Positions 2,669 through 11,720 of a stretch of DNA of 57,714 nucleotides are shown piece after piece; the first letter of the stretch is position 1, and the number at the start of each line of letters is the position of its first letter. The notes beneath the pieces are model-generated. The model did not search any database. It had not been told where the DNA came from and worked only from the letters and a program-made list of their open reading frames with translations. Made by a program: the position numbers and the translations under genes. This DNA is from an uncultured Rubrobacteraceae bacterium (GTDB lineage Bacteria > Actinomycetota > Rubrobacteria > Rubrobacterales > Rubrobacteraceae): the NCBI GenBank assembly GCA_902806095.1, contig CADCVF010000084.1, positions 1 to 57,714 of the forward strand. Reading direction: 5' to 3'.

Positions 2669-4231
2669 ATGGAGCAAGACTCCCCTATCCTTGAGGTGCG
2701 CCGAGTGACGAAACGGTTCCCCGGCGTACTGGCCCTCGACGGCGTCTCCTTCGACCTACGGCCAGGAGAGGTGCACGCCCTGGTCGGGGAGAACGGTGCC
2801 GGGAAATCGACCCTTATCAAGGTCGTCACCGGGGTGTACAGACCCGACGAGGGCCAGATCCTCTTCAACGGCGAAGAGGTCACTTTCGCCGAGCCGCGCG
2901 AGTCGCAAGCGGCGGGTATCAGCACCATATATCAGGAGATCAACCTGATCCCGCTCCTCAGCGTGGCCCAGAACGTGTTCCTCGGGCGCGAGCCCCGCAA
3001 CTCGCTGGGCATGATAGATAAGGCCCGCATGAACAGGGACGCGGCCGAGATCCTGGAACGCTACGGCATTCGCGCGGATGTCACCGCTCCCTTGCGCTCC
3101 CTCGGCCTCGGTGTGCAGCAGATGGTCGCCATCGCGCGGGCCATCTCGGTGGACGCGAGAGCCGTCATCATGGACGAGCCTACCTCGTCGCTGGAGGCGC
3201 GGGAGGTGGAGACGCTCTTCGGCGTGATCGGGCAGCTGCGCGAGGAGGGGGTCGGCGTGATCTACGTCAGCCATCGCCTCGAGGAGCTTTACGAGATCTG
3301 TGACCGTGTGACGGTCCTACGCGATGGTCGAGTGGCGCACACTGGAGACCTCGCCGAGCTCTCCCGCCTGCAACTCATCGCCCACATGCTCGGCAGGGAA
3401 CTCTCCGAGGTTCAGGAGGAGGGTGCCACTGGCTTCGGTGGGGAGCACGAAACCGCGAGGGAACCCGTTCTCGTGGCGCAGAGCCTCAGCCAACGCCCAC
3501 GCCTACACGAGGTTTCCTTCGACGTCCATCCGGGCGAAGTTGTGGGTCTCGCCGGCCTCCTCGGTGCCGGCAGAACCGAAACAGCCAAGGCGATCTTCGG
3601 CGCCGAACCGATCGATTCCGGGTCCGTCAGGGTAGAGGGGAAAGACATCAAGACGGGCTCTCCCGGCGCGGCTATAAGGGCCGGGATCGCCTTCTTGCCC
3701 GAGGATCGCAAATTGGAAGGCATTATTCCGGATCTCTCGGTAAGGGAGAACATTGTCGCTGCGGCTCTGCCGAAGTTGGCACGGGCAGGGCTGGTTTCGG
3801 AGAAGGCGCAGGACGATTTGGTCGAGGAATTCATGCAGAGCCTCGGTATCAAGGCTTCCAGTCCAAACCAGCCGGTCAGGGAGCTCTCTGGCGGCAACCA
3901 GCAGAAGGTTCTTTTGGCCCGCTGGATGTGCATGAACCCCAAAGTGCTCATACTAGACGAGCCTACCCGCGGTATCGACATCGGAGCGAAAGTGGAGATA
4001 CAAAAACTCGTGGACGATCTCGCGGCGAAAGGACTAGGCATCATCCTCATCTCCTCGGAGGTGGATGAGATCACGGAGGGTAGCGATCGCGTGGTCGCGT
4101 TGAGGGACGGTACCGTGGTCGGCTTGCTCTCGGAGGATGAGATCACCGAAAGTAACCTGATGGCCCTGCTCGCGCACGGCGAAGATTCAGGCCACGGGGG
4201 CCAGGAGACCAGAGAGGACGCAGATGGATAG
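2669..4231 (+). CDS. Sugar ABC transporter ATP-binding protein (two fused ATPase domains)
   Basis: Energises the importer; 520 residues, the usual length for RbsA/MglA/YtfR proteins, with two tandem ABC domains. Domain 1 has Walker A GENGAGKST (residues 40-48) and Walker B with MDEPTSSL; its signature is weakened (SLGLGVQQ). Domain 2 lacks a proper Walker A (GLAGLLGAGRTETAK) but has the canonical signature LSGGNQQK and Walker B LILDEPTRGID. One good and one degenerate site is normal for CUT2 transporters. The ATG follows the receptor gene by 17 bases behind GGGGGAGGGG, and the gene overlaps the next by 8 bases, so translation is probably coupled. Confidence 0.93.
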   Translation: MEQDSPILEVRRVTKRFPGVLALDGVSFDLRPGEVHALVGENGAGKSTLIKVVTGVYRPDEGQILFNGEEVTFAEPRESQAAGISTIYQEINLIPLLSVAQNVFLGREPRNSLGMIDKARMNRDAAEILERYGIRADVTAPLRSLGLGVQQMVAIARAISVDARAVIMDEPTSSLEAREVETLFGVIGQLREEGVGVIYVSHRLEELYEICDRVTVLRDGRVAHTGDLAELSRLQLIAHMLGRELSEVQEEGATGFGGEHETAREPVLVAQSLSQRPRLHEVSFDVHPGEVVGLAGLLGAGRTETAKAIFGAEPIDSGSVRVEGKDIKTGSPGAAIRAGIAFLPEDRKLEGIIPDLSVRENIVAAALPKLARAGLVSEKAQDDLVEEFMQSLGIKASSPNQPVRELSGGNQQKVLLARWMCMNPKVLILDEPTRGIDIGAKVEIQKLVDDLAAKGLGIILISSEVDEITEGSDRVVALRDGTVVGLLSEDEITESNLMALLAHGEDSGHGGQETREDADG

Positions 4232-5189
4232 TGGTGCGAGGCCGAACAAGTCTCTTGACGCCTCCACGGTAACCTCTTGGGTTCGCGGCCGCGGGGTGTA
4301 CGTAGCGTTCGTGGTGCTGGTGATCTTCAACCTCATCGTCACCCCCAACTTCGCCTCGGTGGTGACGCTCTCTACCCTGCTGATCACGGTCTCGCCCATA
4401 GTCCTGGTCTCTTTGGGCGTGGCGCTGACGATAGGGACGGAAGGCATAGACCTCTCCGTCGGGTCAGTTATGGCCCTCGCCTCGGCATTTCTCCCGCTGT
4501 ACCTCGGGTACGGTTGGCCAGTCGGATTGTCGGTCGCCCTCCTCGTTGGTGTCCTGGCCGGGCTGGTGAACGGCAGCCTTGTGGCCTTCGTCGGGGTGCA
4601 ACCTATCATCGCCACGCTAGCCATGCTCGTGGGTGGTAGGGGACTGGCCCAAATCTTCGCCGGGGGCCAGTCGTTGCCGGTCACCGATCCGGTGATCCTG
4701 TGGCTCGGACAGGGACGTCTCTTCGGCCTACCGGCGCCGGTCATTGTGGCAGCAGTTGCGGTCCTCGTAGTGGGTTTCCTGGTAAGGCGCACCACGTTCG
4801 GCAGGTACGTGGTGGCCATCGGGGGCAACCGCTCGGCGAGCTATTTGTCGGGGCATCCGGTGCGAAGGACGCTCCTCGCGGTGTACGTTATCAGCGGTCT
4901 ATTGGCTGCCCTGGCCGGGGTCGTAGCCACGGCGCGCCTGGGGGCCAGCGATCCTTCCAACATAGGCCTCCTGATCGAGCTCTCCGCCATCACCGCCGTG
5001 GTGGTGGGAGGGACGCCCTTGAGCGGCGGCAGAGTGAAGGTTGTAGGAACGGTGATGGGCGCGCTCTTGATACAGCTGATTAGCAACACCTTTATAGCGA
5101 ACGATTTGCCCTTTACCTGGGCCCAGGTGCTCACCGCCGCGATCATCCTGGTGGCTGTCTATCTGCAGAAGGGGAGGGGGGTAGTCTAG
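4224..5189 (+). CDS. Sugar ABC transporter permease 1 (YtfT/RbsC type)
   Basis: Integral membrane subunit of the importer; 321 residues with about 8-10 hydrophobic segments. The family signature TEGIDLSVGSVMALASAFLP is present, as are MLVGGRGLAQIFAGGQS and the C-terminal cytoplasmic loop IGGNRSASYLSGHPVRRTLL that contacts the ATPase. Its ATG overlaps the end of the ATPase gene. It forms a heterodimer with the permease encoded immediately downstream, as YtfT and YjfF do in E. coli. Confidence 0.92.
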   Translation: MDSGARPNKSLDASTVTSWVRGRGVYVAFVVLVIFNLIVTPNFASVVTLSTLLITVSPIVLVSLGVALTIGTEGIDLSVGSVMALASAFLPLYLGYGWPVGLSVALLVGVLAGLVNGSLVAFVGVQPIIATLAMLVGGRGLAQIFAGGQSLPVTDPVILWLGQGRLFGLPAPVIVAAVAVLVVGFLVRRTTFGRYVVAIGGNRSASYLSGHPVRRTLLAVYVISGLLAALAGVVATARLGASDPSNIGLLIELSAITAVVVGGTPLSGGRVKVVGTVMGALLIQLISNTFIANDLPFTWAQVLTAAIILVAVYLQKGRGVV

Positions 5190-6179
5190 ATGAGCACTGG
5201 TTCTGCCGACACCGAGGGTCTCGGAGGGAGCCCCGCTTGGCGCGAGCGTCTGTTCACGACGCTCCAGCGGCGCGGGGCTATCGTCGTTCTGATACTGGTC
5301 GTCGCCGTCTCCGCCGTCGTGTTCGACAATTTCCTCACGGAACAGAACCTCGAGAACATCGTGCTCCAGGGGGCCTTCCTCGGCCTGATAGTGGTCGGGA
5401 TGACCTTCGTGATCATAAGCGGCGGTATCGACCTGTCGGTCGGATCGATGGTGGGCCTGGGCGGCATACTCGCCGCCCTCACCGTGCAGGTCTCCTGGCC
5501 GCTGGCCCTGATCTTACCTCCCCTGGTCTGCGGACTCATCGGTTTCGGCAATGGGCTCCTGATCGCCAGGGCCAAGATGGCGCCGTTTATCGTAACCCTG
5601 GCGGGGTTGCTCGGCATCCGGGGACTGGCGCTGGCGCTTGCCAACGAGAAGCCCATCGGGATAGGCGGGAGCTCGCCTTTCGACTGGTTCGGACAGGGCC
5701 AAATTCTCGGCATCTCCGTGCCCGTGTTTTTCGTGATCATCGCTTTCGCGGTAGGCGGTCTGGTCCTTGCGCGGACCAGCTACGGACGGATCATCTTCGC
5801 CATCGGCGGAAGCGAGGAGTCGGCGCGTCTGATGGGGTTGCCCGTGGACCGGACAAAGGTGATCGCCTACACCACGAGCGGAGCGTTAGCGGGCTTCGCG
5901 GGTGCCCTCCTCGCCGCCAGGCTCTCGGCCGGCGATCCCAACGCGGGCCTGGCCTGGGAGTTGGATGCCATCTCGGCGGTGGTCGTAGGAGGCACGTTGC
6001 TGACCGGCGGTGCTGGCACCATGAGCGGGTCGCTTGCGGGGGTCTTGCTGCTCAGCATATTGCAGAACCTGATCAACCAGTTGGGGACCCTGGGCTCTTA
6101 CGCACAGCAGGTGGTAAGCGGTTTCTTTCTCATTATCGTGGTAGTGGTGCAAGCGTACTTGAGTCGTAAGGAGCGGTAG
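5190..6179 (+). CDS. Sugar ABC transporter permease 2 (YjfF type)
   Basis: Second membrane subunit, 329 residues. The ATG directly abuts the stop codon of permease 1 (TAGATG), a sign of tight coupling. Contains ISGGIDLSVGSMVGLGGILA, PFIVTLAGLLGIRGLALALA and the coupling loop IGGSEESARLMGLPVDRTKV, all typical of the family. Last clear gene of the transporter operon; the dehydrogenase operon begins about 350 bases later in the same direction and may be co-transcribed. Confidence 0.92.
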   Translation: MSTGSADTEGLGGSPAWRERLFTTLQRRGAIVVLILVVAVSAVVFDNFLTEQNLENIVLQGAFLGLIVVGMTFVIISGGIDLSVGSMVGLGGILAALTVQVSWPLALILPPLVCGLIGFGNGLLIARAKMAPFIVTLAGLLGIRGLALALANEKPIGIGGSSPFDWFGQGQILGISVPVFFVIIAFAVGGLVLARTSYGRIIFAIGGSEESARLMGLPVDRTKVIAYTTSGALAGFAGALLAARLSAGDPNAGLAWELDAISAVVVGGTLLTGGAGTMSGSLAGVLLLSILQNLINQLGTLGSYAQQVVSGFFLIIVVVVQAYLSRKER

Positions 6180-6527: not shown

Positions 6528-8021
6528 ATGATGGACGTCGTTAACGTTTTGGGCCGGGAGCCCGCTATGTACATCGGCGGCTCCTGGGTGGCGACAGACG
6601 AAGCCCGGCCCGTGATCAACCCGGCGAACGAGTCGATCATCGCCGCCGTGCCCGAGGCCTCCGAGGAACACGCCGACCGGGCGCTCGAGATCGCACGGCG
6701 TGCTCAGTCGGAGTGGAGCCGTAGGAGCGGCCCCGAACGCGGGGCGGTGCTGAAGGCTATTGCTCAAGGCATTCGGGCTCAGCAGGAAGAACTCGCCCGC
6801 CTCGTGGTGGCTGAGCAAGGCAAGACGATCACCGAGGCCCGCGGCGAGGTCGGCGACGCGGCTGCCGGTTTTTTCGACTACTATGCCACCTTTGAGCGTG
6901 CCCAAGTGGGAAGCATGTTCGCCCCGGATGAGACGAACGAGCAGCTCTTCGTCAGGTCGGTTCCCTACGGCGTGGTGATCGGCATTATCCCCTGGAATTA
7001 TCCCGCTGCGCTCTTCGCCCGGAAAGTAGCACCGGCCATAATGGCGGGCAACACCATCGTGCTCAAGCCCCACGAGGACACACCTCTGGCGGCCCTCGCG
7101 CTCGCCAGGATCGTTGAGGAGGCCGGGGCGCCCCCTGGTGTCGTCAACGTCGTCACCGGCGCCGGCAGGGTCGTCGGTGATGCGTTGGTGCGGCACCCAA
7201 TCACCCAGATGGTGAGCGTGACCGGCTCGGTGCGCGGCGGACGTGAGATCCTGGCCGCGGCGGCGGAGAACATCACCCCGGTCTCGCTCGAGCTGGGTGG
7301 GAAGGCGCCGTTCATAGTGCTCGAGGACGCCGACCTGGGCGCCGCGGTCGAGAACGCAGTGGACGCACGCTTCTGGAACTGCGGGCAGGTCTGTACCTGC
7401 AACGAGCGCACCTACGTACAGAGCGGCGTCTACGACGAGTTCGTCGAGCGCTTCGTCGAAGCGGCATCCTCCCTGCGCTTGGGCGACCCCACGCGCGAGG
7501 ACGTGCAGATGGGGCCCAAGGTCAACGAACCCGAGCTGACAAAGGTCGAGGCTCTGGTACGAGAGGCCGTAGAGCAGGGGGCCAACGTACGACTCGGCGG
7601 GGCTCGTCCGGAAGGAAAAGAGTTCGAGAAGGGGTACTGGTTCGAGCCGACGGTGCTGACCGATACAACGAACGAAATGGACATAGTTCAGCGCGAAGTC
7701 TTTGGTCCCGTGCTCCCGATCCAACCGTTCGAGGACTTCGACGAGGTAGTGGGTCTAGCCAACGACTCTCCATACGGTCTAACCGCCTACGTCTTTACGT
7801 CCGATCTGCACAAGGCGATGCGGGCTATCGACGACATCGACTTCGGTGAGATCTACGTAAACAAGATAGGACCCGAGCAAATCCAGGGTTTCCACACCGG
7901 CTACCGTCTATCCGGCATGGGCGGCGACGACGGGCCGTACGGGTACGAGCGCTACCTTCGCAAGAAGACGGTGTATCTACATTACGATGGCTTCGGCACA
8001 CCTGCAGAGCTCCATCCCTAG
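6528..8021 (+). CDS. NAD(P)-dependent aldehyde dehydrogenase, AldA (lactaldehyde/glycolaldehyde) type
   Basis: Oxidises an aldehyde to the carboxylic acid in the cytoplasm; 497 residues, full length. The catalytic set is complete: PWNYP (Asn157), TIVLKPHEDTP (Lys180), LELGGKAPF (Glu255) and FWNCGQVCTCNERTYV (nucleophile Cys289). The NCGQVCTCNER stretch and the C-terminal GPEQIQGFHTGYRLSGMGGD match E. coli AldA more closely than generic ALDHs. Two ATGs (6528 and 6531) follow GAAAGGA; either could start. It precedes the GMC flavoprotein and LarA-like gene on the same strand, suggesting a pathway from a sugar alcohol or aldose through an aldehyde to a hydroxy acid. Confidence 0.9.
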   Translation: MMDVVNVLGREPAMYIGGSWVATDEARPVINPANESIIAAVPEASEEHADRALEIARRAQSEWSRRSGPERGAVLKAIAQGIRAQQEELARLVVAEQGKTITEARGEVGDAAAGFFDYYATFERAQVGSMFAPDETNEQLFVRSVPYGVVIGIIPWNYPAALFARKVAPAIMAGNTIVLKPHEDTPLAALALARIVEEAGAPPGVVNVVTGAGRVVGDALVRHPITQMVSVTGSVRGGREILAAAAENITPVSLELGGKAPFIVLEDADLGAAVENAVDARFWNCGQVCTCNERTYVQSGVYDEFVERFVEAASSLRLGDPTREDVQMGPKVNEPELTKVEALVREAVEQGANVRLGGARPEGKEFEKGYWFEPTVLTDTTNEMDIVQREVFGPVLPIQPFEDFDEVVGLANDSPYGLTAYVFTSDLHKAMRAIDDIDFGEIYVNKIGPEQIQGFHTGYRLSGMGGDDGPYGYERYLRKKTVYLHYDGFGTPAELHP

Positions 8022-8046
8022 CCGAGCTGACGGCCCGGAGAAGTAG

Positions 8047-10314
8047 ATGGAGAGACAAACTTCAGCCCTGTTGGTTTTGACCCCCTACGAGGCACGGACG
8101 GCGGCGGCGGTCTTCGAACGTCTCTTCCCGACCGATGAGAACGGTCCTGGAGCGACGGATATAGGCGTCCTCGCCTACCTCGACCGGGCGCTCGCAGGCG
8201 CATACCGGGACAAGGCCGAAACCTACCGGCTCGGCCTGGCGGCGCTGGACCTCGCCGCCCGTCGGCGCAGCGGCGTGCCCTTCGCCGACTGCTCCGAACA
8301 GATACAGCACGCCCTGGTAACCGAGTTGGAACAGTGCGTACTCCCCGACTTTCGGATCCCCCCGCAGCACGACTTCTTCGAGATGTTGCGAGCCCACCTG
8401 CAAGAGGGGCTCTTCGCCGACCCTGCCCACGGTGGCAACCGCGACAAGCTGGGCTGGAAGCTCCTGGGTCATCCGGGGATCTGGTTCGAAAACTCTGCCG
8501 AGGAGAACCTCTCCGAACAACCCGTGACCAAGGGTGGCAAGATCCAGTCGCTCGAAGACGTAGGCTACTCCATAGGACGCGCCCCAAGCGAACCCGTCGA
8601 TGTCCCCGGCTACGATCCCCAGAAAGGCGCCGAGCCCTCGAGCGGACCGGCGGATGTCGTTCTGGTAGGGATGGGGGCCATGGGTAGCGTGGTTGCCCCC
8701 ATCCTGGCTCGCGCGGGCTTGCGCGTGGTGGGCTTAGAAGCCGGTCCGTGGCGCACCAAGCACGACTTCTTGCCGGACGAGCTGGGGTCCGCCTACTATT
8801 GCAGAGGAGAGATGGGGCCCAAGTTCCTGAACGAGACGCCCCGCTGGCGGCGCAACGAAGGCGAACCGACCCGGGAGGCCACCTTCTCGTTGGGGCGCAT
8901 GATGAACGGCGTGGGTGGCTCGGTCATCCACTGGGGCGGCGCGCTCAGGCGCTTCCATACTCACCACTTCGACTACCTCACCCACGTACGCGAGAGCTTC
9001 GGCGAGGGGGCCCTACCGGACGGTCATTCATTGACCGACTGGCCCGTCTCCTACGGCGAGCTGGAACCCTACTACACGACGGTCGAGTACCTGATCGGGG
9101 TAGCGGGAAACGAAGACAACCCGTTCGTCCGGCGCAGCAAACCCTACCCCCTGCCACCCCTGAGACCCTTCCGCACGAGCGAGATATTCTCCAAAGCCAC
9201 AAAGGGGTTGGGTTTACATCCCTACCCGACGCCGGTCGCCGTGAACAGCGAGCCATACAACGGGTATCCGGCGACCACCTACTGCGCCTGGAGCGGAGGT
9301 TTTGGTCCTTTCAACGACGAGCGGTGGCACCCCGGCCTGACTTCGGTCCCCGAGGCCCTTGCGACTGGCAACCTCGACTTGCGAACCCACTGCAGGGTCG
9401 TCCGCGTCCTTACCGACTCGAGCGGGCACGCCAGCGGCGTCGAGTACGTTGACGTCAACGGGAGCCTTCAAGTGCAGCAGGCACGTACGATAATCCTATG
9501 TGGCTACACCTTCGAGAACGTACGGCTCTTGTTGCTCTCGGGGGACCAGCAGCATCCAGGTGGCCTGGGCAACAACGCGGGTCAGGTCGGCAAGCACTTC
9601 ATGACCAAGATGTGGGCTGATGTCTACGGCTTCTTCCCAGATGTGGTCTTCAATAAGCACACTGGCCCGGCGGCGCAGATGTGGAGCCTGGATGACTTTA
9701 TAGCCGCCGACTTCGACTCGGCGGCTCACGGGTTCGTCGGCGGGGCCACCCCCAACATCGAAAATCAGCAGCTGCCGATACAGATAAGCCGTGAAGGTTT
9801 ACCGCCTGACGTCCCGTCCTGGGGCAAGGGGTACAAGGATCATCTTAGAGACTGGCAGCACATCTGTGCGATACGGCTCCAGCCCGAGTCGTTGTCCTAT
9901 GAGACCGACTTCCTCGACCTGGACCCTCGATATCGTGACCGCAGCGGGCTCGGGCTCCCTCTTGTGCGCATCACTTGCGATCTGCGAGAGAACGAGAGAC
10001 GCCTTGCCGACTGGATAGAAAAGGAGGCCGAAAACATCCTTTACGCGATGGGTGCGGACAAAACGTGGCGTGGTCCACGCTTTCGTGGCGTCTGCAGCAG
10101 CCACGACCTCGGCGGATGCCGCATGGGTGAAGACCCCGCCTCCTCTGTGGTGGACCCCGATCTGCGCGTCCACGACACGCCAGGGCTGTATGTCTTCGGC
10201 GGCGCTGTCTTGCCAACCTGCCCCGGGGTCAATCCAACGCTGACGATGTGGGCTCTCTGCTACCGGGCCGCCGAGCACCTCGTGAGTCGCCTTCGACGTG
10301 GTGACGAACAGTGA
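8047..10314 (+). CDS. Fused gluconate 2-dehydrogenase subunit 3 domain / GMC flavoprotein dehydrogenase
   Basis: A 755-residue oxidoreductase. Residues ~10-150 match the gluconate 2-dehydrogenase subunit 3 family: LTPYEARTAAAVFERLFP, ATDIGVLAYLDRALAG, then FADPAHGGNRDKLGWKLLGH. Residues ~205-750 are a GMC oxidoreductase: VVLVGMGAMGSVVAPILARA is the FAD-binding beta-alpha-beta unit, MMNGVGGSVIHWGGALRRF the conserved substrate-side motif, and SSHDLGGCRMGEDP plus PGVNPTLTMWAL hold the catalytic His and Asn. In classical membrane gluconate dehydrogenases these are separate subunits with a third cytochrome c subunit; here two are one chain and no cytochrome gene or Tat signal is seen. The natural electron acceptor is therefore unknown. 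The ATG follows CGGAGAAG. Confidence 0.88.
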   Translation: MERQTSALLVLTPYEARTAAAVFERLFPTDENGPGATDIGVLAYLDRALAGAYRDKAETYRLGLAALDLAARRRSGVPFADCSEQIQHALVTELEQCVLPDFRIPPQHDFFEMLRAHLQEGLFADPAHGGNRDKLGWKLLGHPGIWFENSAEENLSEQPVTKGGKIQSLEDVGYSIGRAPSEPVDVPGYDPQKGAEPSSGPADVVLVGMGAMGSVVAPILARAGLRVVGLEAGPWRTKHDFLPDELGSAYYCRGEMGPKFLNETPRWRRNEGEPTREATFSLGRMMNGVGGSVIHWGGALRRFHTHHFDYLTHVRESFGEGALPDGHSLTDWPVSYGELEPYYTTVEYLIGVAGNEDNPFVRRSKPYPLPPLRPFRTSEIFSKATKGLGLHPYPTPVAVNSEPYNGYPATTYCAWSGGFGPFNDERWHPGLTSVPEALATGNLDLRTHCRVVRVLTDSSGHASGVEYVDVNGSLQVQQARTIILCGYTFENVRLLLLSGDQQHPGGLGNNAGQVGKHFMTKMWADVYGFFPDVVFNKHTGPAAQMWSLDDFIAADFDSAAHGFVGGATPNIENQQLPIQISREGLPPDVPSWGKGYKDHLRDWQHICAIRLQPESLSYETDFLDLDPRYRDRSGLGLPLVRITCDLRENERRLADWIEKEAENILYAMGADKTWRGPRFRGVCSSHDLGGCRMGEDPASSVVDPDLRVHDTPGLYVFGGAVLPTCPGVNPTLTMWALCYRAAEHLVSRLRRGDEQ

Positions 10315-10439
10315 TCAGGTTGATTGTGATTCTGGGAGTTTGGTTTGCTTGCCCAGGGGTACAGATCCCACGCGTAACATGTAAGGTTCTGAGGTACTTC
10401 GCAGGCCCCGCTTAGGGAGCGCAAAAGGAGGCTGAAACG

Positions 10440-11720
10440 GTGCGCACCGAATTGCAGTACGGCAGGGGTGACCTGACTGTGGAGATCCCCTCGTCGGATG
10501 TGACCGTGCTGAGGACGAAGCACGAGAAGAGGTTGTCAGACGAGGCGGCCGCCTTCCGCGAGGCGGTGCGCCATCCCATCGGCTCAGCGCCGCTCAAGGA
10601 ACTCGTAGATGCCAAGGACCGGGTCGCCGTTGTGATCCCGGACATCACCCGCCCATTACCCTCTGATCGCCTGCTGCCCTGGCTCTTCGAGGAACTCTCG
10701 CATGTGCCAACGGAGAACGTCACCATCGTCAATGGAACGGGCTCCCACCGGCCCAACACCGAAGAGGAACTCGTCGCTATGGTCGGACGAGAGGTGGCCT
10801 CTAACTACCGGGTGGTAAACCACAACGCCCACGACCCGAACACGCTAGCGTTCGCCGGCAGATCTCTAGAGGGCCGCGACGTTTACATGAATCGTGAGTA
10901 TGTCGAGGCGGACAGGCGCATCGTGCTCGGCTTTATCGAGCCGCACTTCATGGCTGGATTCTCGGGCGGGTACAAGGGCGTCTTCCCCGCCGTGGCGGAC
11001 GTAGATTCGATCATGCACTACCACCGGGCATCGGTGATAGGACACGCGCGCAGCACGTGGGGGGTTCTTGAAGACAATCCGACGCAGAGCCAAATCCGCG
11101 AAAACGGCTCCCTCTTGCCTGTGGACTTCCTCGTGAACGTCACGATAAACCGCAACAGGGAGATCACGGGCTACTTCTGCGGCGATGTCCTGGCCGCTCA
11201 CGAGAGGGGCTGCGAGGCCAACAAAGCATCGGTGATGGTAGCGTGCGAAAGGGAGTACCCTATAGTCGTCACCACCAACGGCGGCTACCCCCTGGACCAG
11301 AACCTCTACCAGGCCGTGAAGGGCATGTCGGCGGCCTACCAGATCGTGTCCGAGGGTGGTCTTATCGTCGCCGCCTCTCGCTGCAACGATGGCTTCCCGA
11401 ACCACGGCAACTTTCGGACGATGCTTCTCGAGCACTCTTCGCCGCAAGAGATGCTCGAAACTATCTACTCACCCGGGTTCTCGATGTTCGACCAGTGGCA
11501 GGTTCAGCTCTTCGCCCTGATCTTGCAGAGGGCGAGGGTCGGGCTCTATAGCGAAATACCCGCCGACGACGTCCGTAGCGTGCACCTCCAGTCGACCGCG
11601 GATATAGCGGTCGCGATCTCCGAGGAACTGGAGAGGATCGGCGAAGATGCCCCCGTAGCGGTCCTCCCGGAGGGACCCATGACGGTGCCCTACCTGGAGC
11701 ACGCCCCGATTCGTGCCTAG
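10440..11720 (+). CDS. LarA-type nickel-pincer racemase/epimerase (DUF2088)
   Basis: 426-residue homologue of lactate racemase LarA. The key residues align with fixed offset to L. plantarum LarA: His103 in GTGSHRPN, His169 in FIEPHFMAGF, Lys179 in SGGYKGVFPA (the residue that carries the cofactor thioamide) and His195 in MHYHRASV, so the protein is probably catalytic and cofactor dependent. No larB, larC or larE maturation genes occur in this window. LarA homologues act on many 2-hydroxy acids besides lactate; linkage to aldehyde and GMC dehydrogenases suggests a sugar acid here (inference). GTG start behind AAAGGAGG. Confidence 0.87.
   Translation: MRTELQYGRGDLTVEIPSSDVTVLRTKHEKRLSDEAAAFREAVRHPIGSAPLKELVDAKDRVAVVIPDITRPLPSDRLLPWLFEELSHVPTENVTIVNGTGSHRPNTEEELVAMVGREVASNYRVVNHNAHDPNTLAFAGRSLEGRDVYMNREYVEADRRIVLGFIEPHFMAGFSGGYKGVFPAVADVDSIMHYHRASVIGHARSTWGVLEDNPTQSQIRENGSLLPVDFLVNVTINRNREITGYFCGDVLAAHERGCEANKASVMVACEREYPIVVTTNGGYPLDQNLYQAVKGMSAAYQIVSEGGLIVAASRCNDGFPNHGNFRTMLLEHSSPQEMLETIYSPGFSMFDQWQVQLFALILQRARVGLYSEIPADDVRSVHLQSTADIAVAISEELERIGEDAPVAVLPEGPMTVPYLEHAPIRA

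Follow-up and report, generated by a model that had tools for sequence, protein, structure and literature searches.

A fused GADH3-GMC flavoprotein without iron-sulfur cysteines beside a LarA-type racemase and a sugar importer in a soil Rubrobacteraceae bacterium

Gene content of the locus

The window, that is, the whole 57,714-nucleotide stretch of DNA analyzed here, is contig C84 of the genome of a soil Rubrobacteraceae bacterium (3.83 Mb, 98.6% complete), a family assignment with which its closest relatives agree. A minus-strand gene for a ROK-family polyphosphate-glucose phosphotransferase (positions 314 to 1270; NF045942, 335.9 bits against a cutoff of 250) is divergent from the four plus-strand genes of a sugar ABC importer, which code for a sugar-binding protein (1479 to 2651; Peripla_BP_4), a YtfR-like ATPase with two ABC domains (2669 to 4231; NF041861, 598 bits), a YtfT-like permease (4224 to 5189; PF02653, 135 bits, with NF041862 as the best match), and a second permease resembling AraH, RbsC, and YjfF (5190 to 6179; PF02653, 143 bits). 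They are followed on the same strand by the genes of an AldA-type aldehyde dehydrogenase (ALDH) (6528 to 8021; Aldedh, 547 bits), a GADH3 domain fused to a GMC FAD oxidoreductase (8047 to 10314; PF13618, PF00732, and PF05199), and LarA, a nickel-pincer-nucleotide (NPN) 2-hydroxyacid racemase (10440 to 11720; Lar_N and LarA_C), three open reading frames that an earlier note on this DNA had delimited in the same way. The ALDH and GMC genes are 25 bp apart, and the GMC-LarA and importer-ALDH gaps measure 125 and 348 bp, respectively. Promoter- and terminator-like matches in the cluster did not exceed shuffle expectation, and the two longer gaps do not establish a single transcript.

The closest profile to the binding protein was that of YtfQ (NF041827, 251.5 bits, below the equivalog cutoff of 510), and its best solved-structure matches were also YtfQ-type. 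Thus, the label "YtfQ-type" given to the importer by the earlier note holds as a family resemblance, not as an established YtfQ equivalog. The ALDH, for its part, passed the curated cutoff for AldA-type enzymes (PRK10090, 544.8 bits versus 500), in agreement with its first assignment, and its substrate is a prediction from that family. Its closest solved structure was 6j75 (527.7 bits), which we take to be an anhydro-galactose dehydrogenase, followed by 3k2w; the Escherichia coli AldA structures 2opx and 2hg2 scored 447.2 and 444.6 bits.

That the importer, ALDH, and GMC genes belong together, as had been proposed, is borne out by a genome of the same genus (G141, locus L042), in which binding protein, ATPase, two permeases, ALDH, and GMC follow each other in the order found in the window. 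The row in L042 ends with a protein of the MR/enolase family at the position that LarA occupies in the window. The ROK kinase is tied to the cluster by association alone (a 90% identical copy adjoins a second GMC gene of the same genome, on contig C71, locus L038) and may not belong to the system.

A clade of fused GMC proteins without iron-sulfur cysteines

The 755-amino-acid frame of the flavoprotein contains a Gluconate_2-dh3 domain at residues 14 to 144 (94.6 bits), followed by GMC_oxred_N and GMC_oxred_C, both over their cutoffs. The same single-frame architecture was found in 16 aligned homologues and one plasmid homologue; in Rubrobacteraceae, Chloroflexota, and Gemmatimonadota, it occurs in homologues of 55 to 75% identity. 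Because the single frame recurs in homologues, we consider the fusion real and not a frameshift or an assembly artifact, which confirms that the small subunit is an N-terminal domain of the GMC dehydrogenase.

Among solved proteins, the large subunits of fructose dehydrogenase (140 bits) and FAD-glucose dehydrogenase (117 bits) were the closest. FAD-glucose dehydrogenase has a 3Fe-4S cluster, held by cysteines 212, 218, and 222, that relays electrons to its cytochrome subunit; a twin-arginine signal is found on its small subunit (PMC6719666). This cysteine motif was absent from all 17 aligned fused GADH3-GMC proteins, and at most one of the four Fe-S cysteines was left in any cysteine-less GMC protein; all four were kept in the aligned relatives whose two domains are not one frame (7/7). 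Two plasmid proteins were also compared. The Arthrobacter GMC has no cysteine motif, and that of Lichenicola is fused yet retains it, which rules out a simple equation of fusion with Fe-S loss. In a tree of the GMC domain, the 18 cysteine-less fused proteins, from Rubrobacteraceae, Chloroflexota, Gemmatimonadota, and Arthrobacter, formed one clade with a support of 100/100; overall, the motif was missing from 18/18 proteins inside the clade and present in 8/8 of the outside relatives examined. The loss of the cysteines thus looks like one old event. The flavin-region histidine and the active-site histidine and asparagine are kept (H686, N729, and H295 are invariant in 17 sequences).

The Arthrobacter protein, encoded on plasmid AP024645.1 (L094:8953-11205), is 49% identical, is annotated as hypothetical, and has a different gene context. 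The Chloroflexota and Gemmatimonadota GMC proteins (L010, L014, L016, L017, L069, and L070), with 71 to 75% identity to that of the window, nest among those of Rubrobacteraceae, a pattern that suggests transfer between phyla.

The GADH3 part, here an N-terminal domain and not a separate subunit, has no twin-arginine (RR) motif at its start, and no open reading frame with a cytochrome c-like CxxCH motif was found within 5 kb of the GMC gene. The missing cytochrome partner pointed out by the earlier note is therefore real at this distance, but it is of little value as a distinguishing mark, since most cysteine-bearing GMC relatives have no CxxCH gene nearby either. From the combination of no Fe-S ligands, no export signal, and no CxxCH gene within 5 kb, we infer that the cysteine-less clade probably uses a different electron acceptor, which might be oxygen, a quinone, or a soluble carrier. 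An AlphaFold2 model of the fusion, built from the 17-sequence alignment, had a mean pLDDT of 51, too low for a fold comparison.

Substrate class of LarA and supply of its cofactor

LarA exceeded the cutoff of the lactate racemase profile (NF033504, 476.7 bits versus 460). When it was mapped onto LarA of Isosphaera pallida (PMC11851776), all catalytic, NPN-binding, and carboxylate-binding positions were conserved (R71, H103, H169, K179, H195, Y290, Q291, and K294), so that the key residues already noticed are indeed in place. Four pocket positions are used to predict the substrate of NPN enzymes: lactate racemases (LARs) usually have F, F, W, and E/Q, and gluconate epimerases (GntE) have E, V, A, and H (PMC11770544). 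In the window protein, these positions are F170, M171, W353, and Q354. Three of the four are as in LARs, the methionine is as in the broad short-chain Isosphaera LarA, and none is shared with the GntE set. The LAR and short-chain enzymes racemize lactate and glycerate (PMC11770544), and we infer that the LarA of the window is a racemase of lactate, glycerate, or a similar small 2-hydroxyacid.

This assignment bears directly on the route first proposed, in which the GMC protein would turn the imported sugar by oxidation into an aldonic or hydroxy acid whose C2 LarA would then epimerize. Some NPN enzymes do epimerize aldonates, GntE among them (PMC11770544), and both in the window and in Gemmatimonadota (see below), LarA adjoins sugar-oxidizing genes. 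However, besides the mismatched pocket, the hexonate epimerase profile NF052594 gave LarA only 22.5 bits, compared with the 476.7 bits of the lactate racemase profile, and contig C80 of the same genome holds a protein of the LarAH14/15/16 family (G000:C80:45809-46375; L007:5705-7279) with 834 bits, over the cutoff. This family includes the characterized gluconate epimerase LarAH15, which would make the C80 protein a better candidate than the LarA of the window if the genome epimerizes an aldonate at all. Pocket residues and profile scores thus place LarA with the lactate and short-chain hydroxyacid racemases; aldonate epimerization by this protein was rejected on these grounds, and we regard the route built on it as quite improbable.

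No larB, larC, or larE lies near the cluster, as the earlier note had remarked, but all three were found dispersed in the genome with scores above curated cutoffs: larC on C40 (390.9 bits), larB on C24 (232.4 bits), and larE on C75 (333.2 bits). A genome without Ni-pincer biosynthesis genes, which the earlier note would have taken as a refutation of its proposal, is thus not what was found. LarA could be active with these genes, but they do not link it to the cluster, since four NPN-family proteins of the genome can draw on them: the LarA of the window, the C80 protein, and two group-22 isomerases on C24. One of the group-22 genes (G000:C24:69875-70243 region; L008:7165-11908) is near a LutA/LutB-like L-lactate oxidation set, and the other (L009:4653-8911) is near a threonate kinase-like gene and a cyclase-like open reading frame.

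Neighborhoods in Rubrobacteraceae and Gemmatimonadota

The second GADH3-GMC copy of the genome (74% identical; G000:C71:4507-6759, L038:4504-6759) lies beside an enolase-family dehydratase and the ROK copy. The family scores of this enolase-family protein were to sugar-acid dehydratases, all below the equivalog cutoffs. Besides this locus, MR/enolase-family sugar-acid dehydratases adjoin the GMC gene in L013, L015, L017, L018, L042, and L044, and near some GMC homologues, there are GH51 and GH127 arabinofuranosidases, a GH2-like protein, a DeoR-type regulator, and GalT, GalE, and GalK. The dehydratases, Gal genes, and arabinofuranosidases support the theme of sugar oxidation that had been read from the window. 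Conserved downstream of the GMC gene in several Rubrobacteraceae is a gene for a large GH2-like protein that includes a laminin-G-type domain (L015:14673-17450 and L011:6401-9163).

These neighbors also matter for a reading in which the cluster degrades an anhydro-sugar, with the ALDH and a dehydratase acting like 3,6-anhydro-L-galactose dehydrogenase and its cycloisomerase. Such a role would agree with the ALDH having 6j75 as its closest structure and with the L015 homologue of the enolase-family protein, whose closest solved proteins were a putative racemase and the 3,6-anhydro-L-galactonate cycloisomerase 5xd7 (280.8 bits), although similarity this remote is not enough to assign a substrate. 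None of the loci had a recognizable agarase or neoagarobiose hydrolase nearby; the neighbors are instead arabinofuranosidase and galactose genes, and we hold a role in anhydro-sugar degradation to be very unlikely.

Within Rubrobacteraceae, LarA is linked to ALDH-GMC only in the window. Seven related genomes have a LarA orthologue (77 to 80% identity), and in each it lies away from ALDH-GMC, in most of them by a peroxiredoxin and/or a PRC-type gene. A relocation of LarA in the genome of the window found no support: the PRC neighbor of the relatives is represented here only by paralogues of 39 to 54% identity, and none of the three PRC-paralogue loci examined gave a peroxiredoxin match. The association of LarA with ALDH and GMC recurs in a second phylum, as three Gemmatimonadota genomes carry GalE-GalK-dehydratase-SDR-ALDH-LarA-FAH-GMC on one strand. 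Among 298 Gemmatimonadota genomes sampled, LarA was present in 3/3 with the GMC gene versus 4/295 without it, but the three are related and represent one lineage, that is, about one event and not three independent cases. In two Gemmatimonadota, LarA outside this cluster adjoins a gene resembling FAD D-2-hydroxyacid dehydrogenases.

One of the ten best structure matches of the Gemmatimonadota SDR was the L-KDF dehydrogenase 8y11, and the FAH protein matched the diketo-deoxyrhamnonate hydrolase 8gsr. In the nonphosphorylating L-fucose/L-rhamnose route, a dehydratase, an SDR 4-dehydrogenase, and a hydrolase convert fuconate or rhamnonate to pyruvate and L-lactate (PMC11199699). A LarA acting on a lactate or glycerate product would fit the Gemmatimonadota row. 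In the genome of the window, an FAH homologue (43%) is found on C70 beside a GlcD-like gene, and a LutB/LldF gene is found on C24 near a group-22 NPN protein, so that putative sinks for both D- and L-hydroxyacids exist.

LarA may, on the other hand, be an independent neighbor, i.e., a general lactate racemase that follows an importer-ALDH-GMC operon by chance and takes no part in its pathway. Its separate location in the seven relatives, the dehydratase in its place in L042, the 125-bp gap, and the four NPN-family proteins of the genome all point that way, against which stand the ALDH-LarA-FAH-GMC row of Gemmatimonadota and the uneven distribution of LarA there, with its weight of about one event. 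We consider an independent LarA somewhat doubtful, although a serious contender.

Proposed pathway

The reading that we prefer, tentatively and at slightly less than even odds (a probability of roughly 0.45), is a nonphosphorylating oxidation of sugar in the cytoplasm in which LarA racemizes a small-acid end product. It is built on gene content, protein families, residues, the GMC clade, and the recurrence in a second phylum, and substrate, order of steps, electron acceptor, and coexpression are extrapolated from these. The YtfQ-type importer would bring in an arabinose- or galactose-configured sugar, to judge by the neighbors and the binding-protein family, and the GADH3-GMC protein would use FAD to oxidize this sugar or one of its derivatives in the cytoplasm, passing electrons to an acceptor other than the usual chain of Fe-S cluster and cytochrome. 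A sugar-acid dehydratase from the second locus on C71 could then form a 2-keto-3-deoxy acid, to be cleaved by the FAH-type hydrolase on C70 or by an aldolase into pyruvate and a small acid or aldehyde. An aldehyde released in this way would be the substrate of the AldA-type ALDH, unless this enzyme acts earlier, on a sugar aldehyde. LarA, loaded with the nickel-pincer cofactor by the products of the dispersed larB, larC, and larE, would racemize the resulting lactate or glycerate and thereby make it available to stereospecific dehydrogenases, for which the genome has GlcD-type and LutB-type genes.

Several points speak against this pathway. If the sugar were L-arabinose, the two-carbon product would be achiral, leaving no role for LarA, and D-galactose would yield D-glycerate directly. 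The window cluster is without dehydratase, SDR, and FAH genes, and given the separate location of LarA in the seven relatives, its adjacency in the window could be due to chance. Of the uptake, oxidation, and epimerization route originally suggested, the importer/ALDH/GMC unit and the sugar oxidation theme stand, and the C2 epimerization of an aldonic acid by LarA does not.

A search of open-license papers found no description of the GADH3-GMC fusion, of the cysteine-less clade, or of the pairing with LarA, nor any report of LarA in Rubrobacter, which is not proof of absence. The enzymes belong to known families, and the GMC protein is the most unusual of them. A farther-reaching view, which we think unlikely, is that the clade represents a new kind of sugar flavoenzyme acting in the cytoplasm, which would have arisen from the cytochrome-linked GMC dehydrogenases by taking the small subunit into its own chain and giving up the Fe-S relay. 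It would now work as an oxidase or with a new acceptor and be paired with LarA in an undescribed nonphosphorylating sugar pathway spread by gene transfer among phyla. FAD-glucose dehydrogenase-type enzymes are used in glucose sensors, and the cysteine-less clade would, on sequence grounds, be a natural single-chain form of this group, with an electron acceptor that is directly testable. To our knowledge, what nickel-pincer racemases do in the metabolism of aerobic soil bacteria is established in only a few cases, and a recurring link between LarA and sugar oxidation would suggest one such role, together with a testable substrate.

Comparison with known systems

The nearest described systems are the FAD glucose, fructose, and gluconate dehydrogenase complexes, which consist of a GMC large subunit, a GADH3 small subunit, and a multiheme cytochrome. 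The window protein shares their GADH3 domain and a GMC catalytic domain with the flavin-region histidine and the active-site His/Asn, but it has GADH3 in cis, lacks the 3Fe-4S cysteines and the twin-arginine motif, and has no cytochrome gene in the 5 kb around its own. Bacterial GMC oxidases (pyranose oxidases and glycoside 3-oxidases) resemble it in FAD-dependent sugar oxidation without an Fe-S cluster, which for the window protein is predicted, although their sequence similarity to it is much weaker, and we know of no GADH3 domain among them. With E. coli AldA lactaldehyde dehydrogenase, the ALDH has in common the AldA-type profile and the GQVC catalytic context, while scoring higher to 6j75. 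LarA retains all the functional residues of lactate racemases, including that of I. pallida, as well as the W and Q of the pocket, and differs in having F at the Leu174 position; the known setting of LarA is with larBCE, whereas here it lies beside ALDH-GMC. Finally, the nonphosphorylating L-fucose/L-rhamnose pathway has the same three enzyme families as the Gemmatimonadota cluster, but its dehydratase, SDR, and FAH genes are absent from the window cluster, and the pathway as described includes neither a GMC flavoprotein nor LarA.
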